DNA of 64,000 bases, from assembly GCF_900177405.1 (NCBI RefSeq), contig NZ_LT840185.1, positions 434,001 through 498,000 of the forward strand. The letters are read 5' to 3'. The first letter of the stretch is position 1, and the number at the start of each line of letters is the position of its first letter. Under the pieces are notes generated by a model. It was not told where the DNA came from. It saw nothing but the letters and a program-made list of their open reading frames with translations, and did no database searches. This stretch comes from Allosphingosinicella indica (GTDB taxonomy: Bacteria; Pseudomonadota; Alphaproteobacteria; Sphingomonadales; Sphingomonadaceae). Shown piece by piece: positions 35,946-57,052 of the stretch. Made by a program: the position numbers and the translations under genes.

Positions 35946-37544
35946 TCAGGTCGCCATCCGCTCCAGGGTTGCAATCAAGTCCGCTTCCGTCGCCGGCTTG
36001 TCCTGGCGAATGCGGCTGATCCGCGGGAAGCGCATCGCGAGGCCGGACTTGTGTCGCTTCGAGGCGTGGATCGAGTCGAACGCGACTTCAAGCACCAGTT
36101 TCTTCTCCACCTCGCGCACCGGCCCGAACCGCTCGACGGTGTGGTTGCGCACGAAGCGGTCGAGCCATTTCAGCTCCTCGTCGGTGAAGCCGAAATAGGC
36201 CTTGCCGACCGGCAGCAGCCCGCCGTCCTCGGCCCAGCAGCCGAAGGTGAAGTCCGAATAGAAGCTCGATCGCTTGCCGCTACCGCGCTGCGCATACATC
36301 AGCACGCAATCGGCGGTCAGCGGGTCGCGCTTCCATTTGTACCAGAGGCCCGTCCGCCGCCCCGCGACGTACGGGCTGTCGCGGCGCTTGAGCATCACCC
36401 CTTCGATCGCGGCGTCGCGCGCCCCGGCGCGAATGCTCTCCAGCGCGTCGAAGTCCGCCGCCTCGATCGTTGGCGAGAGATCGAACCGGTCCGCTTCGAG
36501 CGCGGCAACGAACGCGTCGAGCCGCTCGCGCCGTTCGGTCCAGGCCAACTCGCGCAGATCCTCCGGCCCGTCGAACAATATGTCGTAGAGCCGGACGAAG
36601 GCGGGATATTCGCGCAGCATCTTTGGCGAGACCACCTTCCGCCCCAGCCGCTGCTGCAACGCGTTGAAGCTGCCCGCCGCGCCGCCGGCATCATCGCTCC
36701 CCTGCCCCTCGCCGCGGACCAGCAGCTCGCCGTCCACCGCGCCATCGCGATCGAAGGCTTCCGCGACCTCCGGGAAACTGCCCGATATGTCGTCGCCCGC
36801 GCGGCTGTAGAGCCGCGTCTCGCCGCCGGTGCGGACGATCTGGACGCGGATGCCGTCCCACTTCCACTCGGCAGCATAATCGGCGAGGTCGAGCCGAAGC
36901 TCCTCCAGCGGATGCGCGAGCATGAACGGTCGGAATACCGGCACGTTGGCCGGCGTCGGCTGCGTCCCGCGCCCCTCCGCCCAATCGAACAGCGCCGTGT
37001 AGGGCGGCGGGATGCCGTGCCACACCTCCTCCACCGCATCGACATCGAGCCCGAACGCCTGCGCCAGCGCGGTCTTGGCGAGCCGCGCGGAAACGCCGAT
37101 GCGCAGCGATCCGGTGGCCAGCTTCAGCAGCGCGAACCGGCCGCTGGCATCGAGATGATCGAGCATCGCCGCGAGCGCGCCGGGCGCGTCCGCCCTCCCG
37201 AGCGACTGAAGCCGCTCGACCGCGGCCGACAGCCGGATCGTGCCGTCGTCCAGATCGTCGGGCTGGTCGATCGCCTTGGGCCAGAGCAACGACACCGTCT
37301 CGGCCATGTCGCCGACATAGTCGCGGCTCATCCGGTAGAGCAGAGGATCGATCCGCTCCTCGATCAGCCCGCGGATCGCGGCGGGTTTCACGCCTGGCAG
37401 GTCGAGCTCGCCGGTCAGCGCCGCGAGCGCGAAGCCGCGGTCTGGATCAGGCGTGCGGCGGAGATAATCACCGATCAGCTTCAGCTTCGCATTGCGCGAT
37501 CGCGTGTAGACGAGCCCGTCCAGCAGCTCGGAAAAGTCACGCAT
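35946..37544 (-). CDS. ATP-dependent DNA ligase of the ligase-associated DNA damage response system
   Basis: 532 residues from ATG 37542-37544; the longer frame to 37646 would run over the start of the opposite diguanylate cyclase gene. An N-terminal helical DNA-binding domain (1-200) precedes the adenylation domain with nucleophile Lys228 in EWKWDGIRVQ. VDGELLVR, EGVMLKRRDSPY and WYKWKRDP are motifs III-V, and an OB domain ends the protein. This matches the family named 'cisplatin damage response ATP-dependent DNA ligase' (TIGR04120). Its usual partners, an MBL exonuclease and a DEXH helicase, are encoded at 53.3-57.1 kb in this window instead of next to it. Confidence 0.92.
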   Translation of the reverse strand: MRDFSELLDGLVYTRSRNAKLKLIGDYLRRTPDPDRGFALAALTGELDLPGVKPAAIRGLIEERIDPLLYRMSRDYVGDMAETVSLLWPKAIDQPDDLDDGTIRLSAAVERLQSLGRADAPGALAAMLDHLDASGRFALLKLATGSLRIGVSARLAKTALAQAFGLDVDAVEEVWHGIPPPYTALFDWAEGRGTQPTPANVPVFRPFMLAHPLEELRLDLADYAAEWKWDGIRVQIVRTGGETRLYSRAGDDISGSFPEVAEAFDRDGAVDGELLVRGEGQGSDDAGGAAGSFNALQQRLGRKVVSPKMLREYPAFVRLYDILFDGPEDLRELAWTERRERLDAFVAALEADRFDLSPTIEAADFDALESIRAGARDAAIEGVMLKRRDSPYVAGRRTGLWYKWKRDPLTADCVLMYAQRGSGKRSSFYSDFTFGCWAEDGGLLPVGKAYFGFTDEELKWLDRFVRNHTVERFGPVREVEKKLVLEVAFDSIHASKRHKSGLAMRFPRISRIRQDKPATEADLIATLERMAT

Positions 37545-37645
37545 CGGCCGTTCGTCCCATCTCAGCGAAATGCGCAGGCGCGTCGCGAGTTGCAATGCGG
37601 CGAAAGGCGCGGCAATCAGGGCGCTTACCGGGTTTGGGGAGCCCA

Positions 37646-38644
37646 ATGTCGGACGATAGCGTGCACGAGAAGGCGCAGCGCCGCGCCTACAAGGATATCG
37701 GCGCGTTTCTCGAGCAGCACCGGCTCGACATCAATCCGGCCAATTACGCACTCGTCTATTGGGTCGTCACGCAGAGCAATCCGGACGCGGTCGAGCATGT
37801 CACGCGCCTCACCGGGGATGGTCTGCGGCTGACCCAGGCGGAGGCCGATCGCATCATGGCGCTGGTCGGCGAGGATGCGCCGCGCTCAGGCGCGCCGGCG
37901 ATCCAGATCGAGGCCATCCAGGCACAGGTCGCCCGTTTCGCCGAACTCGTCGATCAGACGCGGGCGAGCACCGAATCCTACGGCCGCGACCTGGAAGCAC
38001 AGGCCGACGAGCTGGCCGGCGCGCGGCCCGACACCGCGCTCGCCGATCTCGTGCGCCTCACCAGCGCGATGATCGCGCGCACCCGCGATGCCGAGCGCGC
38101 GCTCGACGAAGCGACCGGCGAGGCCGCGGCGCTCCGCGACAAGCTGGAAGAGGCGCGCGAGGAAGCCAGCCATGACGTGCTGACCGGCCTTCCCAACCGC
38201 CGCGCCTTCGAAGCGCGATATGAGGTGCTGGCGGCGACGGGCGAGCCGATCTCGGTCGCGATCTGCGACATCGATCTGTTCAAGTCGATCAACGACAGCC
38301 ACGGCCATGCGGTCGGTGATCGCGTGCTGAAGGCGGTGGCCGGCGACATGCGCGACACTTGCGAGGGGCATTTCGTCGGGCGGCTCGGCGGCGAGGAATT
38401 CGTCATCCTGATCGCGGGAATGAAGCACGAGGCGGCGTGCGCGCTCGTCGATGCCGCTCGACTTGCCGTCGCCGATCGCAAGTTCCGCGTGCGCGAGACC
38501 GACCGGCCGATCGGCACCGTCACCTTTTCCGCCGGCGTCGCGCGCCGCGGCATGGACGAGCCGCGCGAAACCGCGCTCGGCCGCGCCGACGCGCTTCTCT
38601 ACCGCGCCAAGGAAAACGGCCGCAACCGCATCGAGTGCGACTAG
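37646..38644 (+). CDS. Diguanylate cyclase (GGDEF domain)
   Basis: 332 residues from ATG 37646. The N-terminal 160 residues are soluble and helical (INPANYALVYWVVTQSNPDA; QAEADRIMALVGEDA) and lack a known sensor fold. A coiled coil (145-172) joins the GGDEF domain, with HDVLTGLPNRRAF and the active-site GGEEF at 248-252 intact. It should make cyclic di-GMP. The position 5 residues before GGEEF reads CEGH instead of RxxD, so product inhibition through an I-site is not expected. Its stop overlaps that of the TPR-sulfotransferase gene (CTAG, 38641-38644). Confidence 0.92.
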   Translation: MSDDSVHEKAQRRAYKDIGAFLEQHRLDINPANYALVYWVVTQSNPDAVEHVTRLTGDGLRLTQAEADRIMALVGEDAPRSGAPAIQIEAIQAQVARFAELVDQTRASTESYGRDLEAQADELAGARPDTALADLVRLTSAMIARTRDAERALDEATGEAAALRDKLEEAREEASHDVLTGLPNRRAFEARYEVLAATGEPISVAICDIDLFKSINDSHGHAVGDRVLKAVAGDMRDTCEGHFVGRLGGEEFVILIAGMKHEAACALVDAARLAVADRKFRVRETDRPIGTVTFSAGVARRGMDEPRETALGRADALLYRAKENGRNRIECD

Positions 38645-40626
38645 AGGTCGTAGCCGAACTTTCCGGCCCAGGGCGCCAGCACCGGCAGCACGTCCGCCAG
38701 CCGGTCGCGATGCAGCGCCCAGCGGCCCGCCGCGTCCGCATAGATGCGCTCGGTGACCTGGTCGTAGCTCGGCGTCAGGATCGCGCCCCGCGCCTTTGCG
38801 GTGCGCTGGTTGTCGAGCAGCCGGTCGTCCCACTCCAGCCCCAAGAAGGCGATCAGTGGCCGCATTGTCCGCTCAGTGTCGGCGACCACATCCTCGTAGC
38901 GCGTCTCATGGACCGCGAGCGGCAACAGCGCCCGGCTCCGCTCCCAGAAGGTCATCACCCGGTTGTAAAGCGTCGCGGCGTCGCCCAGGTCGAGGAAGTT
39001 GGCCATCGCGGGGTTGAGCTCGAAATTCTGCATGAAACAGCTCAGCACCACGTCGCACGGATGGCGGAGCGCGAAGATGAAGCGCGCGTCGGGGAAAATG
39101 CGGCGTATGAGCGGCGCGCCGAGGATGTTGAGCGGCAGCTTGTCGATCACCAGCTTGCCCGCCGTCCGCTCCGCGGGGATGAGCGCGTCGAGCGCCTCGA
39201 AATAAATGCCCCGCAGCCGGGTCGCCCCGGCGTCGTCGAGATCGGCGAGCCGCGAAAGATCGCCCAGCGCATCCTTGGATTGCTGCAGCAGCGCCTCTTC
39301 CTCCAGCACGACCGTATCTGGATGCCCCATCAGCAGCGTGTCTAGCAGCGTCGTCCCAGAGCGCGGGAAGGCGACGAGAAAAGTCGGCGCGGGCCGCTCG
39401 GTGTCGGGCGTCGCGGTACGCCAGCTATCGACCCAGGCCCGCGTCATCAGCGCCGTATCGGCCGCGATCTGGTCGCGATACGCCGTTGCCGCCGCACGCA
39501 TCTCGGGCTGGTCCGCCGCCGCGATGCGGTTCATCTCGGCAAAGGCGTCGAACGCCTCCCTGCTGCGGCCGAGTTTGTCGGCGAGCTTGCCGATCAAACG
39601 CGCACGGCGCTCGGGCTGGAAATCCGCCGGCGACTGCCGTGCGGCCGCCAGCGCTTCCTCCAGCTTTCCCTCGCGGCGCAGCAGCAGCGCCCGAAGATAG
39701 GCAATCGCGTCTTCGGGCAACCTCAGTTCCTCGCCCCGCGCGATCAGGCCAGGCAGCGCATCGAGACGGCTGGTCCGCTCTAACAAAAACGCCAGTTCGA
39801 GAAACGCCTCCGGCCCCGGCTCCGGCAAGGCCAGCACGCGCTCATAAGCCTCCTCGGCCTCGGCGAAGCGCTGCACGCTGACCAGCGTTCGCGCGCGCTC
39901 CAGCAGCGGCGTTGCGCTGGCGGGCGCCAATGTGGCGGCACGGTCGAGCGCGCGCAGCGCCTCGTCATGCCGCGCGAGATGGCGCAGCACCCGCCCCGCC
40001 TCTAGCACCGGCTCCGGCGCGACCGGATCCAGCCGCGCGGCCTCCGCATAGGCCGTCAGCGCGCCGTCCAGATCGCCATTGTCGGCGAGCGCGGCGCCGA
40101 GATTGAAGTGGATCGCGCCGACGCTCGGCCGGATCGCCAGCGCGCGACGCAGCGCCTCGACCGCGCCGGCGCCATCGCCCTGCAGGCGCAGCGCATTGCC
40201 GAGGTTGTTCCAGCTTTCCCAGTCGCCGGGTTCGCGCGCGACGACCGCGCGATAGGCTTCGATCGCCCCCGCACCGTCGCCCCGCGCCTGCGCCGCATAT
40301 CCGGCGATGCGCTTGAGCTCGATCTCGGCCGGCCCTGCTGCGCCCTTATAGGCGGCCACTTCGGAGGCCGCGCCGATCTGCCCGATATCGATCAGCGCCC
40401 GCGCCAGCATGACCCGCGCCGCGTCGTTTGCGGGCTCCGCGGCCAGCGCGCCGCGCAGATGCGTTACTCCCGCCGGCAAGTCCCCTGCGCGGCAGGCCAT
40501 CACACCCAGAAAATGAAGGATGGCCGCGTCCGCCGGACTCGCCGCCAGCGCAGCCTCCGCCGCGCGCCGCGCACCGTCCTCATCGCCGCGCCGGGCGAGA
40601 TCGATGGCCTGTGCAAGCGATGTCAC
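38641..40626 (-). CDS. TPR-repeat sulfotransferase
   Basis: 661 residues. Roughly residues 1-370 are tandem TPR units (for example WNNLGNALRLQGDGAGAVEALRRALAI). The C-terminal 250 residues form a Sulfotransfer_3-type domain: FLVAFPRSGTTLLDTLL is the 5'-phosphosulfate loop and FALRHPCDVVLSCFMQNF the 3'-phosphate-binding region of PAPS. Such fusions are common in alphaproteobacteria and are thought to sulfate exopolysaccharides, sphingolipids or peptides, with TPRs recruiting the substrate. No substrate-specific neighbour is present. Confidence 0.9.
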   Translation of the reverse strand: MTSLAQAIDLARRGDEDGARRAAEAALAASPADAAILHFLGVMACRAGDLPAGVTHLRGALAAEPANDAARVMLARALIDIGQIGAASEVAAYKGAAGPAEIELKRIAGYAAQARGDGAGAIEAYRAVVAREPGDWESWNNLGNALRLQGDGAGAVEALRRALAIRPSVGAIHFNLGAALADNGDLDGALTAYAEAARLDPVAPEPVLEAGRVLRHLARHDEALRALDRAATLAPASATPLLERARTLVSVQRFAEAEEAYERVLALPEPGPEAFLELAFLLERTSRLDALPGLIARGEELRLPEDAIAYLRALLLRREGKLEEALAAARQSPADFQPERRARLIGKLADKLGRSREAFDAFAEMNRIAAADQPEMRAAATAYRDQIAADTALMTRAWVDSWRTATPDTERPAPTFLVAFPRSGTTLLDTLLMGHPDTVVLEEEALLQQSKDALGDLSRLADLDDAGATRLRGIYFEALDALIPAERTAGKLVIDKLPLNILGAPLIRRIFPDARFIFALRHPCDVVLSCFMQNFELNPAMANFLDLGDAATLYNRVMTFWERSRALLPLAVHETRYEDVVADTERTMRPLIAFLGLEWDDRLLDNQRTAKARGAILTPSYDQVTERIYADAAGRWALHRDRLADVLPVLAPWAGKFGYDL

Positions 40627-40705
40627 CGGAACGTCCGCGCCCTTCCCGCCCCATGCGGGTCCGGCGCGTCATGGCCGAGACTTGCGCCCCGCGGCAAGCG
40701 CTCCG

Positions 40706-41203
40706 TCAGGCGCCCCGGCTCGTCTCGAACAGGAACCAGGCGCGCTCCTCGGCAAGGTCGGTCCATTCGTCGACCACGCCGGAGGTGGCGTTGTCGCCGG
40801 CGTCCTCGGCCAGCTCCTTCACTTCGCGAAAGCCCTCGACCAGCTTCAGATTGTCCTTGTGCAGCTCCAGCAGCATGTCCTTCGCCGAGACAAAATCGGC
40901 GTCATTGTCCTCCACCCGCTGCAGCCGGCCGATATGGCCGATCGAGCGCAATGTCGTGCCGCCGGTCTTGCGCACCCGCTCGGCGATCGCATCGGTGGTG
41001 CCGAGGATCTGGGTCGCTTGATCGTCGAGCAGCAGATGATAGTCGCGGAAATGCGGGCCGGAGACGTGCCAGTGGAAATTCTTGGTCTTGAGATAGACCG
41101 CATAGCTGTCCGCCAGCGACGCATTGAGCGCTTCGGCGACGCTGCGCACGGCGTTGGTCTCGAGATCGGTGGGCGTATCGAGCTTCTTGGGCGTGTCGGC
41201 CAT
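40706..41203 (-). CDS. dps: Dps-family ferritin-like DNA-protection protein
   Basis: 165 residues; GAGGAG lies 7 nt before the ATG. The ferroxidase-site residues are in KNFHWHVSGPHFRDYHLLLDDQ (two His, Asp, and a Glu nearby), as in Dps dodecamers. The N-terminus has two Lys (KKLDTPTDLETNAV), which may aid DNA contact. It oxidises and stores iron using peroxide and shields DNA in stationary phase or oxidative stress. It stands alone on its strand between the TMEM165-type gene and the TPR-sulfotransferase gene. Confidence 0.94.
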   Translation of the reverse strand: MADTPKKLDTPTDLETNAVRSVAEALNASLADSYAVYLKTKNFHWHVSGPHFRDYHLLLDDQATQILGTTDAIAERVRKTGGTTLRSIGHIGRLQRVEDNDADFVSAKDMLLELHKDNLKLVEGFREVKELAEDAGDNATSGVVDEWTDLAEERAWFLFETSRGA

Positions 41204-41290
41204 GATCGGGCTCCTCGAATGGGTGCGCCGTCATAACCCGAAACGCCGCTTCCAGCTTCGCGGATTCTGTCGAAGACTGTGATCGCCCGC

Positions 41291-41857
41291 CTAGATCAGC
41301 CGCAACGCCTGGACCGCAACAACCAGACCGGCGAGCAGGAAGAGGCAAGCGACACCCGTTTTGATTCCGCGCATCGGCACCGCCTTGGCGAGCTGCTTGC
41401 CGAGCAGCGTGGCCGGCACGCTCGCCGCAATAAGCCCCGCGGTGGCGCCAAGCGCAGCGAGCAGGGCCGAATCGTAGCGCGCGGCGATCGCGAAGGTCAG
41501 GAACTGGCTGCGATCGCCGAACTCGACGACGAAGAAGCCGATCGCGGCGGCAAGGAAGGGCGCCTGCGTCCACTTCAGCGCTCGCTCCGGCGCCCGCTCG
41601 CCGATCAGTCCGGCGATGCCGGCAAACAGCAAGGCGACGGCCACCAGCAAGGTCAGCGCGCGGATGGTGATGAGGCCGGCGAGCAAAGATCCCGCGACCG
41701 CAGCGATCGCGCTGCCCGCCAGCGCCGCCAGCGCGACGCCCGCCAATATCTGCCCCGGCCGGCCGAAGCGTGCGGCCAGCGCCATCACCAGAAAATGCGT
41801 CTTGTCGCCCCACTCGGCGAGCGCGGCGCCGACGAAGGCGGTAAGGAGAGCTTCCAA
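41291..41857 (-). CDS. TMEM165/GDT1-family cation transporter
   Basis: 188 residues from TTG 41855-41857; no ATG or GTG lies in frame before the upstream gene's stop, 13 nt away, so start by coupling is likely. The two family signatures ExGD(K/R)(T/S) are present: AEWGDKTHF (about 14-22) and VEFGDRSQF (about 110-118), each in a three-helix half. Family members export Mn2+ or exchange Ca2+/Mn2+ for H+ across the membrane. The specific ion is inferred. Confidence 0.9.
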   Translation of the reverse strand: MEALLTAFVGAALAEWGDKTHFLVMALAARFGRPGQILAGVALAALAGSAIAAVAGSLLAGLITIRALTLLVAVALLFAGIAGLIGERAPERALKWTQAPFLAAAIGFFVVEFGDRSQFLTFAIAARYDSALLAALGATAGLIAASVPATLLGKQLAKAVPMRGIKTGVACLFLLAGLVVAVQALRLI

Positions 41858-41870
41858 CGGCTGTGCGGCG

Positions 41871-42194
41871 TCAGGCGCCGAGGCGGACCGAGATCGACGC
41901 CAGCATCGCTTCGCTTGCCGATTCGTCGATCGTCCGGCAGCCGATCGCGTCGTAGAGGCGGTCGAGATAGAGATCGGCCGATTTGCGGCAGCCGCCGGTG
42001 ATCGGCGCGCGCTCCAGCGCTTCGGCGATCCGAACGACCGGGGTCAGCCCGTAGGCGGCGGCGGTGCGGCGGATGGCGGTGACGGTGGAGAGGAAATCGC
42101 GGGCAGCAGTGCGCGGCGACATGCTCCTCAGTGCCGCGAGCCGATCGCATAGCTCGGCGCGCACCAGCAGCATCGCATCGGGTTCCTCACGCAT
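41871..42194 (-). CDS. Small helical protein, possibly HPt-like
   Basis: 107 residues, all helical by composition: [29 protein letters not shown] and [23 protein letters not shown]. The second stretch resembles the helical repeat of histidine phosphotransfer or two-component accessory proteins but has no clear phospho-His, so this is only a likeness. Two Cys near the C-terminus ([21 protein letters not shown]). It lies 13 nt before the TMEM165-type gene and is probably co-transcribed with it. Confidence 0.68.
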
Positions 42195-42269
42195 GCCCGC
42201 CCCTTTCCAGGTCTTCGGATGCGATCATGCGCCAACATGGTTACAGGCCGGTTAAACGCCCGCTTTGGC

Positions 42270-42275
42270 TTGACA
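42270..42275 (+). promoter_or_regulatory. Candidate -35 box (TTGACA) upstream of rpmG
   Basis: TTGACA in GGCTTGACATCG matches the alphaproteobacterial housekeeping -35 and shares its context with the box before the DEAD-box gene at 11514. No clear -10 hexamer is seen. It lies 94 nt before the rpmG ATG. Confidence 0.35.
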
Positions 42276-42368
42276 TCGACCCCCCGACCGGCCAGAGGCG
42301 TGCCCGAGAGCGGTGGCCTTTGCCGCCGCTTTTGCTTTTCGCATCCACAGATTTCGAAAGAGGCTGTC

Positions 42369-42536
42369 ATGGCCAAGCCGACCACGGTCAAGATCAAGCT
42401 CGTCAGCTCCGCCGACACCGGCTTCTTCTACGTGACCAAGAAGAACCCGCGGAACATCACCGAGAAGATGACCTTCCGGAAGTATGATCCCGTCGTGCGC
42501 AAGCACGTCGAGTTCAAGGAAGCCAAGATCAAGTGA
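42369..42536 (+). CDS. rpmG: 50S ribosomal protein L33
   Basis: 55 residues from ATG 42369, the typical length. The sequence [40 protein letters not shown] and [14 protein letters not shown] is standard alphaproteobacterial L33. It is the Cys-free type, lacking the zinc-binding CxxC pairs, so it does not need zinc. It binds near the E site of the large subunit. A strong hairpin begins at its stop codon. Confidence 0.97.
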
Positions 42537-42568
42537 CGATCGGCGCGCATCCGCGCGCCTGATCGTCA
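42534..42568 (+). terminator. Strong hairpin starting at the rpmG stop codon
   Basis: TGACGATC-GGCGCGC (42534-42548), loop ATCC, GCGCGCC-(bulged T)-GATCGTCA (42553-42568): 15 paired bases with one bulge, the stop codon being part of the stem. No T-run follows, so it may act through mRNA protection or factor-assisted termination. Confidence 0.6.
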
Positions 42569-42687
42569 TCCCGGACCTGATCCGGGATCCAGCTTCCCCG
42601 CTAGGTCTCCGTCATCCCGGACCCGATCCGGGATCCAGCTCCGCCGCTGGGTTCGCCCTCATCCCGGATTCGATCCGGGCTCCAGGC
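42565..42687. repeat. Three direct copies of a palindromic REP-like unit
   Basis: Units start at 42565, 42611 and 42657/8 (period about 46 nt). Each reads GTCATCCCGGA-N2-5-TCCGGGATCCAGC with small changes, so each has 8-bp arms (ATCCCGGA/TCCGGGAT). The spacers differ (TTCCCCGCTAGGTCTCC and TCCGCCGCTGGGTTC), so only the units are conserved. They fill the gap between rpmG and the convergent divK gene. Confidence 0.88.
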
Positions 42688-43086
42688 TTATTCCTCTTCC
42701 TCGCCGCTTTGCCCTGCGCCGTTCGGCAGCAGCGCGCGCACCGCGCCGACGAACCCCACCACCGATATCGGCTTCGACACATAGCCTTCCGCGCCCGCCG
42801 CGCGGATACGCTCCTCGTCGCCCTTGGCCGCATAAGCGGTCACCGCCATGATCGGGATGGCGCGCAGCGCCTCGTCGGCCTTCAACTGCTCGATCAGCTC
42901 CAGTCCGCTGATCCACGGCATCTGGATGTCCATCACGATCAGCGACGGCCCGAAGGCGCGCGCGCGATCCAGCGCCTCGCGCCCGTCGCGCACCGGCTCC
43001 GCGCTGTAATCGTGCGCGCGCAGCAGATCGCAGAACAGTTTCAGATTGAGTTCGTTGTCCTCGACAACGAGGATTTTTTGTCCCAA
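42688..43086 (-). CDS. divK: DivK, single-domain response regulator of cell-cycle control
   Basis: 132 residues from TTG 43084-43086, with AGGGG upstream; no ATG lies in a family-like position, and the longer frame is not DivK. The receiver is complete: VVEDNELNLKLFCDLL, phospho-Asp53 in LIVMDIQMPWISGLEL, AVTAYAAKGDEERIRAAG, and Lys105 in YVSKPISV. These are DivK hallmarks. In Caulobacter, phosphorylated DivK changes DivL-CckA signalling and lowers CtrA activity. An acidic tail (GQSGEEEE) ends it. The DUF3572 gene is divergent from it, a pairing common in alphaproteobacteria. Confidence 0.92.
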   Translation of the reverse strand: MGQKILVVEDNELNLKLFCDLLRAHDYSAEPVRDGREALDRARAFGPSLIVMDIQMPWISGLELIEQLKADEALRAIPIMAVTAYAAKGDEERIRAAGAEGYVSKPISVVGFVGAVRALLPNGAGQSGEEEE

Positions 43087-43123
43087 CGCGCAGCCCCTGA
43101 CGCTTACCAATCCCCAATAGGCC

Positions 43124-43390
43124 ATGACCGGACAGGAAACAAATGAGGCCGAGACGGTCGCGCTCGGCGCGCTCGGCTGGACGCTCGCCGACGATGCCCG
43201 TGCCGAGCGGCTGCTCGCGCTGACCGGTCTCGATGCCGGGGAGCTGCGCGCGCGCATCGGCGAGCCGGCGCTGCTCGCCGCAGTGCTCGCCTTCCTCGAG
43301 GCGCACGAGCCCGATCTAATCGCCTGCGCCGACGCCATCGGCCGAAGCCCCGCCGATCTCGCCGCTGCCCGCCGGGTACTGGAGGCATGA
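43124..43390 (+). CDS. DUF3572 family protein
   Basis: 88 residues: ETVALGALGWTLADDARAERLLALTGLDAGELRAR followed by a helical region ending in RRVLEA. This is the DUF3572 pattern, a small alphaproteobacterial helical protein often found beside divK; the function is unknown. Its stop overlaps the start of the HAD gene (ATGA, 43387-43390), so they are translationally coupled. Confidence 0.88.
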   Translation: MTGQETNEAETVALGALGWTLADDARAERLLALTGLDAGELRARIGEPALLAAVLAFLEAHEPDLIACADAIGRSPADLAAARRVLEA

Positions 43391-44010
43391 GCCGCCCCTT
43401 GCTCATCACCGATTGCGACGAGGTGCTGCTGCACATGGTGTCGCACTTCGGCGCCTGGCTAGACGAGGCGCACGAAATCGACTTCGCGTTCGATGGCGGC
43501 GATTTCACCAATGCGATGACGCGGCGCAACGGAGCCGCGGCGCCGACCCGCGACGAGATGTGGGCGCTGCTCGACGGCTTCTTCGCCACCGAAATGCACC
43601 GCCAGACGCTGGTCCCGCACGCCGCCGATGCATTGGAAACGATCGGCGCGCGTGCCGACATCGTCATCCTCACCAATCTCGGCGATCATTGCCACGCCGG
43701 CCGCGTCGCGCAGCTCGAGGCGCACGGCATCCGCCACCGCGTCGTCTGCAACCAGGGCGGCAAGGGCGCCCCCGTGGCCCGGCTGATCGAAGAGTTCGCG
43801 CCTTCCGCCACGGTGTTCGTCGACGATCTTCCGGTCCACCACGAATCGGTTGCCAAGCACGCGCCCCAGGTCTGGCGCCTCCACATGATCAGCGAACCCC
43901 GCATGGCCCCCGCCGTCCCCCCCGCCCCCCACGCCCACGCCCGCATCGACGACTGGCGCGAAGCGGAAAGCTGGATCGCGGAACGGTTTGAAGAAGGTGC
44001 GGCGAGCTAA
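43387..44010 (+). CDS. HAD-superfamily hydrolase
   Basis: 207 residues. Motif I, usually DxDxT/V, reads ITDCDEVLLH near the start; motif II is VILTNLGDH; a Lys in GGKGAPV and VFVDDLPVHHES give motifs III and IV. The enzyme is probably a small phosphatase; the substrate is unknown. It is coupled to the DUF3572 gene by a 4-nt overlap. A Pro/Ala-rich stretch (PAVPPAPHAHARI) precedes the C-terminal helix. Confidence 0.85.
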   Translation: MSRPLLITDCDEVLLHMVSHFGAWLDEAHEIDFAFDGGDFTNAMTRRNGAAAPTRDEMWALLDGFFATEMHRQTLVPHAADALETIGARADIVILTNLGDHCHAGRVAQLEAHGIRHRVVCNQGGKGAPVARLIEEFAPSATVFVDDLPVHHESVAKHAPQVWRLHMISEPRMAPAVPPAPHAHARIDDWREAESWIAERFEEGAAS

Positions 44011-49141: not shown

Positions 49142-49158
49142 TGCGAAAAATACCGCGA

Positions 49159-50007
49159 TCAGGACTGTGGCATCACCGCAACATTATCGATCAGCCGCGT
49201 CGTCCCCATCCGCGCGGCCGCGAGCAGCCGGGCGGGACGATCGAGCCTGTCCATCGCCGACAGCGTCGCGGCATCGGCGAGCGTGATATAGTCGATCGGC
49301 CCGAACCCCGCGTCCGTCAGCCGCTCGGTCGCCGCCGCCAAAGTCGCTGCCACTTCCGCCCCGCCCTCGATGGCGCGCGCCGCATCGCCCAGCGCGCGCG
49401 GCAGCGCCCGTGCGGCGCGGCGCTCGTCGGCGCTGAGATAGGCGTTGCGCGAGGAGAGCGCGAGGCCGTCGGCATCGCGCTGGGTCGGGACGCCGGAGAT
49501 CTCCACCGGCAGATCGAGATCCGCGGCCATGCGGCGGATGACGGCGAGTTGCTGCCAGTCTTTCTCGCCGAACAGAGCGATGTCGGGTGCGACCTGGGTG
49601 AAGAGCTTGGCCACCACCGTCGCAACGCCGTCGAAATGGCCGGGTCGTGACGCGCCTTCCAGCGTCTCGCTGACGCCCGAGACCGACACGGTGGTCGCAT
49701 TGCCCTGCGGGTACATGACGTCCACCGGCGGCGCCCAGAGCAGCGCACAGCCGCCCTCCTCCAGCATCCGCGCATCCGCCGCCTCGCGGCGCGGATAGGT
49801 CGAAAGATCCTCACTCGCGCCGAACTGCCGCGGGTTGACGAAGATCGATGCGACGACGTGGTCTGCGCGCGTCCGCGCTTCGGCGATCAGCGCCAGGTGG
49901 CCGGCGTGGAGCGCGCCCATCGTCGGCACCAGCGCCACCTTTCCGCCGGCCGCGCGGAGGCCTGCGACCGCCTCTCGCAGCGCCTTGATCTCACGGATGA
50001 TTTGCAC
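49159..50007 (-). CDS. panC: Pantoate-beta-alanine ligase (pantothenate synthetase)
   Basis: 282 residues from GTG 50005-50007. Nucleotidyltransferase motifs: LVPTMGALHAGHLALI with HxGH at 34-37, VASIFVNPRQFGASEDLSTYPR, the ATP site LFGEKDWQQLAVIRR, and ALSSRNAYLSADERRAA near the middle. It joins pantoate and beta-alanine with ATP to form pantothenate for CoA synthesis. panB is not beside it. It is divergent from mipZ. Confidence 0.96.
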   Translation of the reverse strand: MQIIREIKALREAVAGLRAAGGKVALVPTMGALHAGHLALIAEARTRADHVVASIFVNPRQFGASEDLSTYPRREAADARMLEEGGCALLWAPPVDVMYPQGNATTVSVSGVSETLEGASRPGHFDGVATVVAKLFTQVAPDIALFGEKDWQQLAVIRRMAADLDLPVEISGVPTQRDADGLALSSRNAYLSADERRAARALPRALGDAARAIEGGAEVAATLAAATERLTDAGFGPIDYITLADAATLSAMDRLDRPARLLAAARMGTTRLIDNVAVMPQS

Positions 50008-50100
50008 GCCCCTACGGCCTCCGATAAGGCTTTGCCCGACTGGTGCGGCGTCTCTAATGGGACGCCGTCGCCACGATCAAGAGGGGCATCGGGGATTCGC

Positions 50101-50907
50101 ATGGCTGGCGCAACGCCGCATTTCATCGTGTTCGCCAATGAGAAGGGCGGAACCGGCAAATCGACGACGGCGGTGCACAGCGCCGTCGCGCTGGCGGCGG
50201 CCGGGCGGCGAGTCGCCGCGATCGACCTCGACACGCGCCAGCGCACGCTCGGCCGCTATCTCGACAATCGCGCGGCGACGATCCGCCGCATCGACATCGC
50301 GCTGCCGATGCCCGCGTTCACGACCTTCGATCCCGCCAAAGACGACGATCTCGACGCCCAACTCGACGCGCTCGCCGCCGATGCCGACGTGGTGGTGGTC
50401 GATACGCCGGGCCGCGACGACCCCTATGCGCGCCAGGCGATGCTGCGCGCCGATACGCTGGTCACGCCGATCAACGACAGTTTCGTCGATCTCGACCTGA
50501 TCGGCGAGGTCGATCCCGAGACCTATCGCGTCCGCCGCCCGAGCTTCTATTCGGAGCTGGTGTGGAACAGCCGCACGCAGCGCGCCAAGACGACCGGCGC
50601 GACGGTGGATTGGGTGCTGCTGCGCAACCGCCTTCAGCACATCGAGGCGCGCAACATGCGCCGCGTCGCCGAAGCGCTGGGCGATCTTTCCAAGCGCGTC
50701 GGCTTTCGCGTCATTCCGGGCCTCGGCGAGCGCGTGATCTACCGCGAACTCTTCCCCAAGGGCCTCACCCTGCTCGATCTCCAGCAGATCGGCGAAGTGG
50801 GTCTCAGCCACATCGCCGCGCGGCAGGAATTGCGCGAGATGATCGCCGGCTTCGGCCTGCCCGAGGCGCAAGCCGAAGCGCCGCGCCGCGCGGCGATGGC
50901 GGGCTGA
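50101..50907 (+). CDS. mipZ: MipZ, ParA-like ATPase that positions the division site
   Basis: 268 residues from ATG 50101; the longer upstream frame is antisense to panC. The deviant Walker A EKGGTGKST is at 14-22, followed by the switch VAAIDLDTRQRTLGRYLDNR, where MipZ has the catalytic Asp of its ATPase, and VDTPGRDDPYARQAMLRADTLVTPINDSFVDLDLIG. These segments are MipZ-specific rather than general ParA. In Caulobacter, MipZ forms a gradient from ParB at the poles and blocks FtsZ assembly away from midcell. The next gene starts one nucleotide after its stop. Confidence 0.94.
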   Translation: MAGATPHFIVFANEKGGTGKSTTAVHSAVALAAAGRRVAAIDLDTRQRTLGRYLDNRAATIRRIDIALPMPAFTTFDPAKDDDLDAQLDALAADADVVVVDTPGRDDPYARQAMLRADTLVTPINDSFVDLDLIGEVDPETYRVRRPSFYSELVWNSRTQRAKTTGATVDWVLLRNRLQHIEARNMRRVAEALGDLSKRVGFRVIPGLGERVIYRELFPKGLTLLDLQQIGEVGLSHIAARQELREMIAGFGLPEAQAEAPRRAAMAG

Positions 50908-50908
50908 G

Positions 50909-51325
50909 ATGCTGCCGCTGCTCCTCGTCATCGGCGGGGCGATGATCTGGGCGTGGGCGACCGGACGGCTGCGCAACTATACCTACGAAGACGGCATCGC
51001 GCTGGCGCTGTTCCTGCTCGGCGTGCGGCTGTTCACCACCGGACGCCTAGTGATGGGCGCGGCGCTGATGGCCGGGACATTGCTGTGGGGCGCCTATCGC
51101 CACAACCAGCACCGCGTCCGTCCATCCATGCCGGTAGAGGATGCGCGCGCCCTGCTCGGCGTCGGCCCCGAGGCGTCGCTTGCCGATATCCGCGCCGCGC
51201 ACCGCCGCCTCATCGCGCGGCTCCACCCCGACGCCGGCGGATCGAGCGAGCTTGCCAACCGCGTCAACGTCGCGCGCGATATTCTCGTCGCAGATCTTTC
51301 GCGGCGCACCCCTTCCGCTTCCTGA
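50909..51325 (+). CDS. Membrane-anchored J-domain protein
   Basis: 138 residues, starting one base after the mipZ stop, hence coupled. Two hydrophobic spans (about 1-17 and 29-62) precede a short J domain (74-130) with the essential HPD at 106-108 (IARLHPDAGG). The layout resembles the Tim14/Pam18-like J proteins of alphaproteobacteria. It would recruit and stimulate DnaK at the membrane. Its tight link to mipZ is notable. Confidence 0.87.
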   Translation: MLPLLLVIGGAMIWAWATGRLRNYTYEDGIALALFLLGVRLFTTGRLVMGAALMAGTLLWGAYRHNQHRVRPSMPVEDARALLGVGPEASLADIRAAHRRLIARLHPDAGGSSELANRVNVARDILVADLSRRTPSAS

Positions 51326-51340
51326 TCGTTACCCGAGGCC

Positions 51341-52726
51341 ATGACCCATAATTTCCACCCCACATCGCTGCGCGAATATGACATCCGCGGCATCGTCGGC
51401 GAGACCCTCGGCGAGGACGATGCCTATGCCATCGGCCGCGGCTTCGCGACGCTGGTCCGGCGCGGCGGCGGCACCCGCGTCGCGGTCGGCCGCGACGGAC
51501 GCGACAGCTCCGAGCGGCTGGAGGACGCACTCGTCCGCGGACTGACCGAAAGTGGCGTCGATGCGGTCCGCGTCGGTCTCGGCCCGACGCCGATGCTTTA
51601 TTATGCCGCCGCGGTGCTCGAGGTCGATGGCGGGGTGATGATTACCGGCAGCCACAATCCGGCCAATTACAACGGCTTCAAGATGGTGCTGCAGGGCCGG
51701 CCCTTCTTCGGCGCCGACATCCAGCAGATGGGCGTGATGGCTGCCGAAGGCGACTGGCTCGACGGCCATGTCGGCAAGGTCAGCGATCACCACATCATCG
51801 ACGATTATGTCGCGCGGCTGGTCGAAGGGTTCGATGGGGGCGCGTTCCGTATCGGCTGGGACGCGGGCAACGGCGCCGCCGGCCCGGCGCTCGAAAAGCT
51901 GGTGAAGCTGCTGCCCGGCGAGCATCACACGATCTACACCGAGGTAGACAGCCGCTTCCCCAACCACCATCCCGATCCGACCGAGGAAAAGAACCTCGCC
52001 GACCTGAAGGCGCTCGTCGTCGACCGCGGCCTCGATTTCGGTATCGCTTTCGACGGCGACGGTGATCGGATCGGCGCGGTGGACGGCCAGGGCCGCGTCA
52101 TCTGGGGCGACCAACTCCTTTCGATCCTTGCCGAGCCGGTGCTCGCGGACCAGCCCGGCGCGACGATCATCGCCGACGTGAAGGCGAGCCAGGCTCTGTA
52201 CGACCGCATCGCCGAGCTCGGCGGCGAACCCCTGATGTGGAAGACCGGGCACAGCCTGATCAAATCGAAGATGAAGGAAACCGGCGCGCCGCTCGCCGGC
52301 GAAATGTCGGGCCACATCTTCTTCGCGCATGATTATTATGGCTTCGACGACGCGCTTTATGCCGCCGTTCGCCTGATCCGCGCAGTGAGCGCGCTCGGCG
52401 GGTCGCTGACCGCGCTGCGCGATGCGATGCCGGCGATGGTCAACACGCCCGAGATGCGCTTCCAGGTCGACGAAAGCCGCAAGTTCCCAGTGGTCGAAGA
52501 AGTGCTGGCGCGGCTGGAAAGCGCAGGCGCGGACGTCGACCGCACCGACGGCGCCCGCGTCAACACCGGAGACGGCTGGTGGCTACTGCGCGCATCGAAC
52601 ACCCAGGACGTTTTGGTCGCGCGCGCCGAAGCCAGGGACGAAGCGGGCTTGGCACGTCTCGTCGCACAGATCGACGATCAGCTTGCGCAGTCGGGGCTCG
52701 AGCGGGGGCCGCAAGCGGGGCACTGA
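51341..52726 (+). CDS. Phosphomannomutase/phosphoglucomutase
   Basis: 461 residues, four-domain alpha-D-phosphohexomutase. Phosphoserine loop: [13 protein letters not shown] with Ser104; metal loop [12 protein letters not shown] (about 235); sugar-binding GEMSGHIFF (about 322-330); phosphate-binding [15 protein letters not shown] near the end. It interconverts mannose- or glucose-6- and 1-phosphate for exopolysaccharide, LPS and sugar-nucleotide synthesis. The signatures match the AlgC-type dual-specificity group. It follows the J-domain gene after 15 nt and is probably in the same transcript. Confidence 0.93.
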
Positions 52727-52746
52727 GCCCCGTCCCGCGAGGACCG

Positions 52747-53367
52747 CTAGCGCGTCGGCTTTGCGATGCAGGCCGGGCGCGGCTCCTGACCCGCGATCGC
52801 GCGAGCCTGCTCGTTCTGCTGCGGTCCCGGCGGCACCTTGCCGATCACGCAGGGCGGTTCGGCCGCGCTGTCGATGGCGAGAAGATAGGAGGTCGGCGTC
52901 CGGCCTTCGGGCGATTCATAGACTTCGTAGCGGACGATCAGCCGGTCCGTGCCGATCCACTCCACCGTCTTCCCGAGCGTGCTGAACGCGCCACCGGCGA
53001 TCGTCGAGGGTAGCTGCATCTGCCGCTTCGCCCCGCCGGGTCCAACCAGCGCGAGATCCTCGCGCGCGTCCGCTTCGATCACCTCGAGCTTCCAATCGCC
53101 GCGGCCGGGACATTCGAACCGGACGTAGCCGCCCTCTTCGCGATTCACTTCGATCTGCTTGCAATTCGTACGGTCGAGGCTGGTGAAGACCGGCTCAGGC
53201 ACCGGCAGCGGCACCGGCGTGGCATCGGCGAGTGGAGATGCTGTCGCGACCGGCGAAGGCGTCGCCGGCGCTGCCGGCTGCTCCTCAGCCTTGCCGCAGG
53301 CGGCGAGCATCGCGAACGCCGCGAAGCTCCAGCGCGGATCAATCGTCTTCATCTTCATAGCCGACAA
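52747..53367 (-). CDS. Putative lipoprotein of unknown function
   Basis: 206 residues from TTG 53365-53367, which has AAGGAG exactly 7 nt upstream; ATGs 9 and 15 nt further in lack this spacing. The lipobox MLAAC gives the lipidated Cys at 24. A Pro/Ala-rich linker (28-62) follows, then a domain with GGYVRFECPGRGDWKLEVIEADA, VEWIGTDRLIVRYEVY and two Cys. It overlaps the 3' end of the exonuclease gene by 29 nt. No known family. Confidence 0.7.
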   Translation of the reverse strand: MSAMKMKTIDPRWSFAAFAMLAACGKAEEQPAAPATPSPVATASPLADATPVPLPVPEPVFTSLDRTNCKQIEVNREEGGYVRFECPGRGDWKLEVIEADAREDLALVGPGGAKRQMQLPSTIAGGAFSTLGKTVEWIGTDRLIVRYEVYESPEGRTPTSYLLAIDSAAEPPCVIGKVPPGPQQNEQARAIAGQEPRPACIAKPTR

Positions 53368-54337
53368 GATTCAACTCCTTGGCCTTGATCTGATGCAGCG
53401 CGCACCAGTGGATCAGCGCATCCTCGCGCCCGTGCGTCACCCAAACCTCGCGCGGGGCGAGCTCGCGGATCGTGCAGGTCAGCTCGTCCCAATCCGCATG
53501 GTCGGAGAGGATCAGCGGCAGCTCGACGTTGCGCTGGCGCGCGCGCTGGCGGACGCGCATCCAGCCCGAGGCCATCGCAGTGATCGGATCGGGCAGCCGC
53601 CGCGACCAGCGATCGTTGAGCGCGCCCGGCGGGCTCAGCACGATATGCCCCTTGAGCGCGTCCTTCGAAACCCCCGTCGCCGGGCGCAGTTCGCCGAGAT
53701 CGATGCCGTGGCTCTGGTAGAGCGCACACAGCCGCTCCAGCGCGCCATGAATGTAGATCGGATCGGAATGTCCGCGCCCGCGCAGCTCCGCGATCACCCG
53801 CTGCGCCTTGCCAAGCGCATAGGCGCCGACCAGCACGCAGCGATCGGGATTGGCGTGGAGCCGCGCGAGCAGGCGGTCCATCTCAGCGCCGGTATCGGGA
53901 TGCCGGAAGACGGGAAGACCGAAGGTTGCCTCTGTAATGAAGATGTCGCACGGCACGGGCTCGAACGGCGCGCAGGTCGGATCCGGCCGGCGCTTGTAAT
54001 CGCCCGACACCACCACCCGCTCGCCGCCATATTCCAGCACGATCTGCGCCGAGCCAAGGACGTGGCCCGCAGGCACGAAGCGTATATCGACCTCGCCGAG
54101 CCGGACGCTGCCTCCATAGGGCACAGGCTCGCCAGTCTGCGCACCATAGCGACAATCCATGATCGCAAGCGTTTCCGGAGTCGCCCAGACACGACCGTGG
54201 CCGCCGCGCGCATGATCGGCGTGGCCGTGGGTCACCAGCGCCCGCGCCTTCGGCTCGCTCGGGTCGATCCAGACGTCGGCAGGCTTGACGTAAATGCCGC
54301 GCGGATGCGGCGCGATCCAGGAACCGAGGCGGGGCAT
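53339..54337 (-). CDS. Ligase-associated DNA exonuclease (metallo-beta-lactamase/beta-CASP)
   Basis: 332 residues from ATG 54335-54337. The metallo-beta-lactamase HxHxDH is THGHADHARGG (about 48-53); VVVSGDYKR and the later LSDHADWDEL supply the other metal ligands. The beta-CASP region is between. It corresponds to the family 'ligase-associated DNA damage response exonuclease' (TIGR04122), a 3'-processing or 5'-3' nuclease that works with the matching ligase and DEXH helicase. The helicase gene lies 300 nt away in the opposite direction; the ligase gene is 16 kb away. Confidence 0.92.
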   Translation of the reverse strand: MPRLGSWIAPHPRGIYVKPADVWIDPSEPKARALVTHGHADHARGGHGRVWATPETLAIMDCRYGAQTGEPVPYGGSVRLGEVDIRFVPAGHVLGSAQIVLEYGGERVVVSGDYKRRPDPTCAPFEPVPCDIFITEATFGLPVFRHPDTGAEMDRLLARLHANPDRCVLVGAYALGKAQRVIAELRGRGHSDPIYIHGALERLCALYQSHGIDLGELRPATGVSKDALKGHIVLSPPGALNDRWSRRLPDPITAMASGWMRVRQRARQRNVELPLILSDHADWDELTCTIRELAPREVWVTHGREDALIHWCALHQIKAKELNLVGYEDEDD

Positions 54338-54424
54338 AGCCCCTCTGAACGCACGACGCGCCCGAAAGCGCCGACGCAACCGTGCGACCCTTCGATACGT
54401 TGGGCGGCACGAAGGAGAAGCGAC

Positions 54425-54616
54425 ATGGATTCAGGCGGCGCAGGCTGGACACTGATGACGATCATCGGGCCGATCCTGCTCATCGCGGTGATCGCCTGGG
54501 CGGCGCTCCGCAACCGATCTTCCCGGGCGAGCGACGACGAGACCGAGCGCGCCACCCGCGATCTCTATCGCGAGGAGGACAAGGCGCATCGCGGCGAGGA
54601 CGACGACGTTCCCTAA
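54425..54616 (+). CDS. 63-residue membrane protein between the exonuclease and helicase genes
   Basis: From ATG 54425, with a strong AAGGAG Shine-Dalgarno. One transmembrane span (about 8-27, LMTIIGPILLIAVIAWAALR), then a charged cytoplasmic tail ending DKAHRGEDDDVP with many Asp/Glu. Small proteins of this type occur in many sphingomonads; no function is known. It sits exactly between the divergent exonuclease and helicase genes, 27 nt before the latter. Confidence 0.82.
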   Translation: MDSGGAGWTLMTIIGPILLIAVIAWAALRNRSSRASDDETERATRDLYREEDKAHRGEDDDVP

Positions 54617-54643
54617 GCCCAGTTCCACCCCTACATACGCCGC

Positions 54644-57052
54644 ATGAGCCTCCCGCCCGTCATTGCCGAATGGTTCGCGGGGAAAGGCTGGGCGCCGCGG
54701 CCGCATCAGACGGCGATGCTAGCTGCTGCTCAGGCGGGGCAATCGGCGCTGCTGATCGCCCCCACCGGCGCCGGCAAGACGCTCGCCGGCTTCATCGCGA
54801 CGCTCGCCGAACTCGTCGCGCATCCGACCGACCGGCTGCACACGCTCTACATTTCGCCGCTGAAGGCTTTGGCGGTGGATGTGCAGCGTAACCTGCTCAA
54901 CCCGCTTGCTGAGATGGACCTGCCGATCCGGGTAGAGACGCGCACCGGCGACACCCCCGCCGACCGCAAGGCGCGGCAGCGCGTCCGCCCGCCCCAGATT
55001 CTGCTGACCACACCCGAATCGCTCAGCCTGCTGCTCAGCCATGAGGATAGCGCGACCCTGTTCGCCGGGCTGAAGGCGGTCGTCATCGACGAGATCCACG
55101 CCTTTGCGACCGGCAAGCGCGGAGATCTGCTCAGCCTCTCGCTTTCGCGGCTGGAGAAGCTCGCGCCCGGCTATCGCCGCGTCGCGCTCTCTGCCACCGT
55201 TGCCGATCCCGAAGCCTATCAGGGCTGGCTCGCGCCGCATGGCGACATCGGCGCGGTTGCGCTGGTTCAAGGCGATCCCGGCGCTGCGGCCGACATTCGC
55301 ATCATGCTGCCGGACGAGGACCGCGTGCCCTGGTCCGGGCATTCGGGGCGCTGGGCGGCGGCGCACGTCATGCGGCAGATCGAGGCGCACCGCACCACGC
55401 TGGTCTTCTGCAACACGCGCAGCCTCGCCGAGCTGATCTTCCAGGATCTGTGGGCCGAGAATGACGCCAACCTGCCGATCGGCGTCCATCACGGATCGCT
55501 CTCGCTGGAAGCGCGGCGGAAGGTCGAGGCGGCGATGGCGGACGGCCGGTTGCGCGGTCTCGTCTGCACCGCCAGCCTCGATCTCGGCGTCGACTGGGGC
55601 GATGTCGATCTCGTCGTGCAGATGGGCGCGCCCAAGGGCTCGTCGCGGCTGCTCCAGCGCATCGGCCGCGCCAACCACCGGCTCGACGAGCCGAGCCAAG
55701 GCATCCTCGTCCCCGGCAACCGCTTCGAATATCTGGAGGCGCGCGCCGCGCTCGACGCGATCGGCGAGAAGGAGCTTGATCCCGACATCTTCCGTCCCGG
55801 CGCGCTCGACGTTCTCGCGCAGCATGTCATGGCCGTCGCCTGCGCCGGGCCGTTCGACGAGGCGGCGCTGCTCGACGAAGTGCGGAGCGCGGCCCCTTAT
55901 GCGGGGCTGACCGCCGAGCTGTTCTCCGCCGTGCTGGGCTATATCGAGAGCGGCGGCTATGCGCTGCGCGCATATGACCGGTTCAAGCGGCTGACCAAGG
56001 GGCCGGACGGGCTGTGGCGGGTCAGCCACCCGCGCTTCATCCAGCAGCATCGCATGAATGCCGGCATCATCGTCGACGCGCCGCTGCTCGACGTGCGCTT
56101 CCGCAACGGCCGCAAGCTCGGCACCGTCGAGGAATATTTCGCCTCGACGCTGTCGGTCGGTGACACTTTTTTCTTCTCGGGCCTGAGTCTGGAGGTGGAG
56201 CGGATCGACGGCACCGATCTCTTCGTTCGCGCGACCACCCGCCCGGCGCGGGTCCCTACCTATGTCGGCGCGCGCATGGCGATGACCACCAACCTCGCCG
56301 ATCGCGTTCGGCACTTCCTCAACGAACGGGAGCAGTGGCCGCGCTTTCCCGACGACGTGCGCGAGTGGCTGGAGATGCAGGACCGCCGCTCTACCCTGCC
56401 CCGCCCGGACGAGCTGCTGATCGAAACCTTCCCGCTCGAAGGCCGGCACAATATGGTGATTTACAGCTTCGAAGGCTGGAACGCGCACCAGTCGCTCGGC
56501 ATGCTGCTCACCCGGCGGATGGAAAGCGCGGGCCTGAAGCCCACCGGCTTTGTCGCGAACGATTATGCGCTCGCCTGCTACGGGCTGGAGCCGATCGCCG
56601 ATCCCGCCGCGCTACTCTCTCCCGACATCCTCGAACATGAATTCGTCGAATGGGTACAGCAGTCGCACCTATTGAAGCGCGCCTTCCGCGAGGTGGCGGT
56701 GATCGGCGGCCTCGTCGAGCGCAACCATCCGGGCAAGCGGAAGACAGGAAAGCAGGTCACCTTCTCGACCGACCTCATCTACGACGTGCTGCGCCGCTAC
56801 GAGCCCGATCACCTGCTGCTGAAGGCGGCGTGGGAGGATGCGCGGACGCGGATGACCGACGTGGGCCGCCTCGCCCGCCTGCTCGACCGCGCGGCAGAGA
56901 CGATGGTCCACGTCGATCTGCCGCGCATCTCGCCGATGGCCGTTCCCGTCCTCGTCATCATCGGCCGCGAACGCGTCGCCGAAGGCACCGCGGACGACGC
57001 GCTCCTCATCGAAGCGGAAGCGCTGGCGGAACTGGCAATGCGGGAAGATTAA
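54644..57052 (+). CDS. Ligase-associated DEXH-box helicase (Lhr-like)
   Basis: 802 residues. Motif I APTGAGKT (39-46), motif II DEIH (near 150), motif III SAT, motif VI LLQRIGRANH, then the Lhr-core winged-helix and C-terminal domain. It matches the family 'ligase-associated DNA damage response DEXH box helicase' (TIGR04121), a 3'-5' Lhr-core helicase that translocates on ssDNA and unwinds RNA:DNA hybrids. Partners are the exonuclease at 53.3 kb and the ligase at 35.9 kb. The PdeM phosphoesterase gene that often follows is absent; an M20 peptidase gene on the other strand starts after 3 nt. Confidence 0.94.
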   Translation: MSLPPVIAEWFAGKGWAPRPHQTAMLAAAQAGQSALLIAPTGAGKTLAGFIATLAELVAHPTDRLHTLYISPLKALAVDVQRNLLNPLAEMDLPIRVETRTGDTPADRKARQRVRPPQILLTTPESLSLLLSHEDSATLFAGLKAVVIDEIHAFATGKRGDLLSLSLSRLEKLAPGYRRVALSATVADPEAYQGWLAPHGDIGAVALVQGDPGAAADIRIMLPDEDRVPWSGHSGRWAAAHVMRQIEAHRTTLVFCNTRSLAELIFQDLWAENDANLPIGVHHGSLSLEARRKVEAAMADGRLRGLVCTASLDLGVDWGDVDLVVQMGAPKGSSRLLQRIGRANHRLDEPSQGILVPGNRFEYLEARAALDAIGEKELDPDIFRPGALDVLAQHVMAVACAGPFDEAALLDEVRSAAPYAGLTAELFSAVLGYIESGGYALRAYDRFKRLTKGPDGLWRVSHPRFIQQHRMNAGIIVDAPLLDVRFRNGRKLGTVEEYFASTLSVGDTFFFSGLSLEVERIDGTDLFVRATTRPARVPTYVGARMAMTTNLADRVRHFLNEREQWPRFPDDVREWLEMQDRRSTLPRPDELLIETFPLEGRHNMVIYSFEGWNAHQSLGMLLTRRMESAGLKPTGFVANDYALACYGLEPIADPAALLSPDILEHEFVEWVQQSHLLKRAFREVAVIGGLVERNHPGKRKTGKQVTFSTDLIYDVLRRYEPDHLLLKAAWEDARTRMTDVGRLARLLDRAAETMVHVDLPRISPMAVPVLVIIGRERVAEGTADDALLIEAEALAELAMRED

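Follow-up and report, generated by a model that had tools for sequence, protein, structure and literature searches.

Bacterial gene clusters that combine the Lhr-Core helicase, the metallophosphoesterase MPE (PdeM), an MBL-fold exonuclease and the DNA ligase LigB were reportedly founded as a system by Ejaz and Shuman in 2018 and by Ejaz et al. in 2019, and the latter are said to have found MPE to be a Mn-dependent single-strand DNA endonuclease. The alphaproteobacterial SOS (LexA) box, the direct repeat GTTCN7GTTC, reportedly goes back to da Rocha et al. in 2008. As far as the accessible parts of the sources go, the cluster is also treated in four later papers (PMC7437997, PMC8301817, PMC10140301, PMC10799422), which describe Lhr-Core as translocating on single strands (PMC7437997), LigB as the repair ligase of the cluster (PMC10140301) and MPE as lying near blhr in 276 of 319 bacterial genomes (PMC8301817); the type of damage handled by the set is given as not known (PMC10140301). 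In equally partial texts, the Caulobacter LexA consensus is the same GTTCN7GTTC repeat (PMC9578287, PMC12700426), and mycobacterial lhr-nei2 is a damage-induced operon of a helicase and a DNA-processing partner (PMC11323726). Here, we analyse a 64-kb window of the Allosphingosinicella indica genome (positions 434001-498000 of its one contig of 2,807,253 bases, G000), in which an earlier note had recognized the ligase, the exonuclease and the helicase of this system and had pointed out the absence of PdeM. We find that the genome encodes the complete four-enzyme set at three sites, and that its pdeM gene carries an exact GTTCN7GTTC repeat directly after the ATG.

Genes were called with the NCBIfam models TIGR04120 to TIGR04123 at their curated cut-offs (400, 850, 325 and 150 bits for ligase, helicase, exonuclease and PdeM, respectively). 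All four proteins of the window genome exceed them, and the three encoded in the window do so by a wide margin (Table 1). The identities and positions proposed in the earlier note thus stand, and the ligase does not belong to a different family. The solved chains nearest to the exonuclease by sequence are the ribonuclease TTHA0252 and cleavage/polyadenylation-type nucleases. The note had also stated that no metallophosphoesterase gene lies in the window, which is correct for PdeM (no TIGR04123 match; other metallophosphoesterase kinds were not searched for there), and had left open whether PdeM is elsewhere or lost. The whole-genome search that it had suggested returned a single TIGR04123 match, free of internal stops, on the same contig and 1.25 Mb from the helicase, that is, not beside the window genes. 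This protein retains the DLH, GDSFHD, GNHD and GHFHP stretches, which we take to be metal-binding, and the only solved chains that it matched are those of the Pseudomonas putida nuclease MPE (6nvo and 6nvp, E about 5e-37). With a full-length PdeM on the same contig, the set is therefore scattered over three sites rather than partial. Compared with the described cluster, the window genome is alike in all four families and in its divergent exonuclease and helicase; it differs in having three sites, with adjacency limited to the exonuclease and the helicase, and in a distant PdeM that has a LexA-type box of its own.

We ran all four models over 98 genomes of the order Sphingomonadales (completeness at least 95%), 50 of which belong to the family of the window genome. 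PdeM and the helicase exceeded the cut-off in the same 52 genomes, and the exonuclease and the ligase in the same 45, which are nested within the 52. Of the family genomes, 49 carry helicase plus PdeM, and in 43 the set of four is complete. The remaining family member (G060) is the only one of the 50 without any of the four over cut-off; its congeners G069 and G096 carry the two gene pairs on separate contigs. Loss of PdeM, leaving the partial three-gene set on which the earlier note had thought the system might run, would fit the absence of PdeM from the window, and partial sets do exist. They are of another kind, however, with helicase and PdeM present and exonuclease and ligase missing (7 of 52), and no genome among the 98 has an over-cut-off helicase without PdeM. 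Together with the full-length gene on the same contig, which refutes it, this makes loss of PdeM practically untenable.

The region between -350 and +30 around each model start was searched for GTTCN7GTTC, and the counts were compared with shuffled sequences. An exact box is present at pdeM in 37 of the 52 order genomes (0.3 expected), and in 36 of these it begins right behind the ATG and makes up codons 2-6, mostly GTT CCC CTT/TTT TCG TTC. The same scan gave 1 of 52 for the helicase, 1 of 45 for the exonuclease (plus 1 on the other strand) and 0 of 45 for the ligase. Two genomes of one early branch (G076 and G086) have a one-mismatch box in the same place. In genomes picked by the box, codons 2, 5 and 6 are frozen partly by construction, and codon usage was assessed instead in public PdeM loci picked by protein similarity alone (the best 80 of at least 596 confirmed, and thus near relatives). 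The box follows the ATG in 77 of these 80 loci (absent in L267, L339 and L340). Codons were counted in the 75 loci whose match begins on the ATG, leaving aside L279, L283, L294, L339 and L340, the first three of which show a box after an ATG at the level of the DNA sequence. Codon 2 is GTT in all but one of the 75, codon 3 is CCC in 56 of the 59 loci with proline, codon 4 always ends in T (TTT in 50, CTT in 25), codon 5 is TCG in all 73 loci with serine, and codon 6 is TTC in all 75. Later valine columns of the same genes use GTT 44 times out of 734, and among the other conserved columns, 88 in number, the most frequent codon accounts for a fraction of 0.95 or more in only 2 (0.68 on average). 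Codons 2-6 of pdeM thus probably represent a DNA-level signal, a LexA-type operator.

The frozen codons could alternatively be a translation-start or N-terminal protein signal, for example for leaderless initiation. The box does lie inside coding sequence, and boxless relatives (G086 and G028 among them) also begin with the residues F-S-F-A-G; conservation of the protein could therefore account for half of the box. Yet synonymous sites hardly vary in codons 2-6 but do so in the codons that follow, and GTT makes up 7.7% of the valine codons in these genes against its near-exclusive use at codon 2. Seven genomes of two genera carry extra residues that separate the box from the conserved start of the protein, with the box itself still at the ATG; in G088, the one boxed genome without a box at the start, it is found at -80 instead. 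The resemblance to the recA box of the same family, outlined below, likewise speaks for an operator, and we regard a start or protein signal as distinctly unlikely.

To place the box relative to a promoter, we aligned 113 boxed starts on the ATG (36 from the survey and 77 from public records, at least four genomes being in both). Peaks are seen at -35 to -33 (T in 94, T in 87 and G in 78 starts) and at -11 (A in 89), above a background of 0 to 0.15 bit between -70 and -41. The window genome reads TTGCGC, 16 bases, TATAGC, 6 bases, ATG. This pattern corresponds to a predicted sigma-70-type promoter whose -35 and -10 elements are spaced by 17 bases and whose +1 falls on the A of the ATG. From the placement we predict a leaderless pdeM transcript, a type that occurs in alphaproteobacteria, in which the LexA site would span +4 to +18. 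In undamaged cells, LexA bound to codons 2-6 would block pdeM. After DNA damage, cleavage of LexA would switch on the Mn-dependent single-strand endonuclease PdeM, which would then work with a helicase, an exonuclease and a ligase made independently of LexA.

The recA genes of the family provided a reference for a LexA-type operator. GTTCN7GTTC is present in 27 of 30 family genomes (0.15 expected), 124 to 152 bases before the model start, and the column consensus GTTC-CCCTCTT-GTTC has a middle similar to that of pdeM, GTTC-CCCTTTC-GTTC. The recA gene of the window genome has a candidate box with one mismatch at -141, inside the position range of its relatives' boxes. The pdeM box is like the alphaproteobacterial LexA regulon in direct repeat, spacing and recA-like middle, and differs in lying inside codons 2-6 rather than upstream. 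A matrix built from the recA boxes only, for which 0.6 to 2.2% of shuffles score at least 10, gave such scores at pdeM in 36 of 52 genomes, at the helicase in 2 of 52 (both outside the family), at the exonuclease in 3 of 45 and at the ligase in none of 45. By exact scan and matrix, there is no clear excess of LexA-type boxes at helicase, exonuclease or ligase, and the best matrix scores upstream of the exonuclease and the helicase of the window genome are negative.

Several observations weigh against a LexA operator confined to pdeM. Twelve of the 49 family pdeM genes have no exact box between -350 and the start, and none within 4 to 4.5 kb upstream, and 3 of the 30 family recA genes have no box even with one mismatch allowed. 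The best pdeM box scores 17.9 and that of the window genome 11.1, which is below any recA box (16.9 to 27.4). The three scoring exonuclease boxes (about 1 expected) include two inside the family (G033 and G096) and one outside (G012). In the 19 of 22 compact clusters of other families that were scanned, 15 have no exact box at these genes. The other four have one between exonuclease and helicase (G123, G219 and G187) or at -79 of pdeM (G139), and in order genomes of other families a box precedes the helicase in G013 (exact) and G012 (one mismatch). As far as this small sample suggests, the point of SOS control may have moved from one part of the set to another. Taking these points together, we hold with good confidence that the window genome has a complete set at three sites in which PdeM would be the SOS-induced part, with its own leaderless promoter and an operator in codons 2-6, and in which the other three genes would be LexA-independent.

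An alternative reading of the same data would be that PdeM no longer belongs to the pathway and has an SOS role separate from it. PdeM is the only component with an excess of LexA-type boxes, and 28 of the 49 family pdeM genes are no longer linked to the helicase. PdeM is, however, never found without the helicase in either the order survey or the class survey described below, and the boxes between exonuclease and helicase in other families suggest that the whole set has ties to SOS. We consider a separate function of PdeM unlikely, and prefer its SOS-dependent action within the four-enzyme set. Among the 28 unlinked pdeM genes, 27 have the box. That the operator came first and relocation later was rejected as a conclusion: the count is suggestive and finds no backing in the phylogeny (2 supported independent pairs, p 0.5-1), a further point against our interpretation.

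We extended the survey to the class, with 193 genomes. Four of them are family members included above, which leaves 189 further genomes. Helicase and PdeM again form identical sets, with 70 and 70 of the 189 genomes and 119 without both; these helicase counts include a partial gene below cut-off (G198) and three that reach it only when combined with neighbouring pieces, and leave out long Lhr-type matches far below it (G135 and G258, and second matches in G159 and G233). The exonuclease was found in 52 genomes and the ligase in 49, three having the former without the latter (G124, G145 and G183). Only G273 has exonuclease and ligase without helicase and PdeM; this 2.2-Mb assembly consists of about 40 contigs, and the pattern may thus reflect an assembly gap.

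Gene order was compared next to gene content. In the order survey, where genes on different contigs were counted as apart, exonuclease and ligase lie under 1 kb from each other in 25 of 45 genomes, helicase and exonuclease in 18 of 45; for helicase and PdeM, the distance is below 5 kb in 24 of 52. Within the family, with a link taken as broken over 6 kb, the exonuclease-ligase link is broken in 17 of 43 genomes (G073, where a contig end cuts the ligase, was counted as linked), the helicase-exonuclease link in 26 of 43 and the helicase-PdeM link in 28 of 49. One or the other of the first two links is broken in 42 of the 43 family genomes with all four genes, and the four genes are compact in one of the 50. 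The ligase of the window genome lies 15.8 kb from the exonuclease, so the 16-kb split described in the earlier note is real, yet it is ordinary for Sphingomonadaceae. Class genomes outside the family keep exonuclease and ligase no more than 5 kb apart without exception (49 of 49), and the detached ligase is therefore the unusual feature, shared with the other family genomes counted above and with G012 of another family. The divergent orientation of exonuclease and helicase, which the note had also pointed out and which we see with 343 bp between their matches, is the normal layout. All 22 compact class clusters have exonuclease and ligase on one strand, with helicase and PdeM on the opposite one; the halves diverge in 21 clusters and converge in G271. 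G042 and G047 have the divergent pair as well. On an rpoB tree (80 rows, quick search), the earliest branch of the family is G042, which is still compact as ligase<exonuclease followed by helicase>PdeM, and the fewest changes required are 4 for the exonuclease-ligase, 2 for the helicase-exonuclease and 8 for the helicase-PdeM link. The ancestral layout was likely this same compact order; the lineage of the window would have kept the exonuclease/helicase pair together, with the ligase ending up at a distance of 16 kb and PdeM at one of 1.25 Mb.

Scattering of this kind could be neutral drift, in which case the four genes would no longer act together and their co-occurrence would come from shared ancestry only. 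The family offers too few losses of helicase and PdeM for a test (a single change on the rpoB tree). Exonuclease and ligase were lost together several times in lineages whose relatives have both genes adjacent, so that one deletion could have removed them. Against this, the helicase/PdeM match outside the family is perfect, and in 19 of those 70 genomes the two genes are not within 5 kb on one contig (in 16 of the 19 they are on different contigs and may lie at any distance). In addition, G060 is without both modules, which occupy separate contigs in its congeners. We give neutral drift some weight while thinking it unlikely, and infer that the four enzymes act jointly after their genes have been unlinked.

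The interval between ligase and exonuclease was also inspected. A PMM gene resembling the one in the interval was seen close to the helicase in 30 of the 51 helicase stretches that were fetched, usually accompanied by MipZ/ParA and PanC, and most of these 30 have no exonuclease adjacent. The neighbours of the ligase (cold-shock gene, Dps, response regulator, HAD, RidA) are likewise seen again beside it in several genera; these names come mostly from sequence reading, with Pfam matches for MipZ, DnaJ, sulfotransferase and ferritin-like Dps. Because of these two recurrences, we read the 16 kb as backbone, and an insertion between ligase and exonuclease is not supported.

Table 1. Coordinates of the genes and frames discussed. 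Positions are those of the window unless preceded by G000:C1, the contig of the window genome.
Feature	Position	Strand	Score (bits) / cut-off	Remarks
ATP-dependent DNA ligase, LigB type (TIGR04120)	35946..37544	-	791.5/400	Pfam DNA_ligase_A_M, A_C
MBL-fold ligase-associated exonuclease (TIGR04122)	53339..54337	-	465.1/325	Pfam Lactamase_B_2
Lhr-Core type DEXH helicase (TIGR04121)	54644..57052	+	1061.7/850	Pfam DEAD, Helicase_C, WH_Lhr, DEAD_assoc
PdeM, whole-genome match (TIGR04123)	G000:C1:1742259-1742840	-	219/150	single match
pdeM from the start directly ahead of the box	G000:C1:1742190-1742852	-	219.4/150	220 residues
Stretch between exonuclease and small frame	54338..54424			no LexA-type box by matrix score
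Small open frame	54425..54616	+		63 residues, single hydrophobic stretch, charged tail; 27 bp ahead of helicase
Frame overlapping the exonuclease	52747-53367	-		206 residues, lipoprotein-like by eye
Double cold-shock-domain protein, by eye	34541-35407	+		adjoins ligase; glycine-rich start
Second ATP-dependent ligase-like match (TIGR04120)	G000:C1:2626756-2627598	+	73/400	outside window; open frame of 869 residues

Four smaller features accompany these genes (Table 1). The short frame ahead of the helicase had no match in NCBIfam or Pfam searches and has relatives in four other helicase regions (G004, G045, G072 and G075). Being recognizable in just 5 of 52 such regions, it was rejected as a fifth component of the set. 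In the accessible part of PMC9611098, the exonuclease and helicase accessions of two Sphingomonas species skip one number, which fits an intervening gene there too. The frame that overlaps the 3' end of the exonuclease by 29 bases takes the position of the ligase in compact clusters; it has no NCBIfam or Pfam match, and a similar frame lies beside the exonuclease in G075. A gene similar to the cold-shock gene next to the ligase was seen in 10 fetched ligase stretches. The second ligase-like match is perhaps LigD, judged by its length.

The LexA-type box at the pdeM start is the part worth following. A literature search, which left most subscription papers and the regulon databases outside, yielded no mention of pdeM among LexA targets, nor of such a box within its codons. 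In mycobacterial lhr-nei2, helicase and partner share one operon, whereas here only the nuclease PdeM has a box and is unlinked from the helicase. We give even weight for and against to a broader proposal for the Sphingomonadaceae, in which SOS would steer the four-enzyme pathway through PdeM alone, by an operator in its own first codons on a leaderless mRNA, with the rest free of LexA. The control point would have shifted between parts of the set, as the exonuclease/helicase boxes of a few other alphaproteobacteria suggest, and its own operator may have let PdeM leave the cluster. Damage control of the endonuclease alone would point to the nick as the rate-limiting and dangerous step of the pathway. 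If this is true, recoding five codons with the protein unchanged should let PdeM escape SOS control, which offers a simple genetic handle, and the Sphingomonadaceae would provide a natural test of which parts of the set depend on one another after unlinking.

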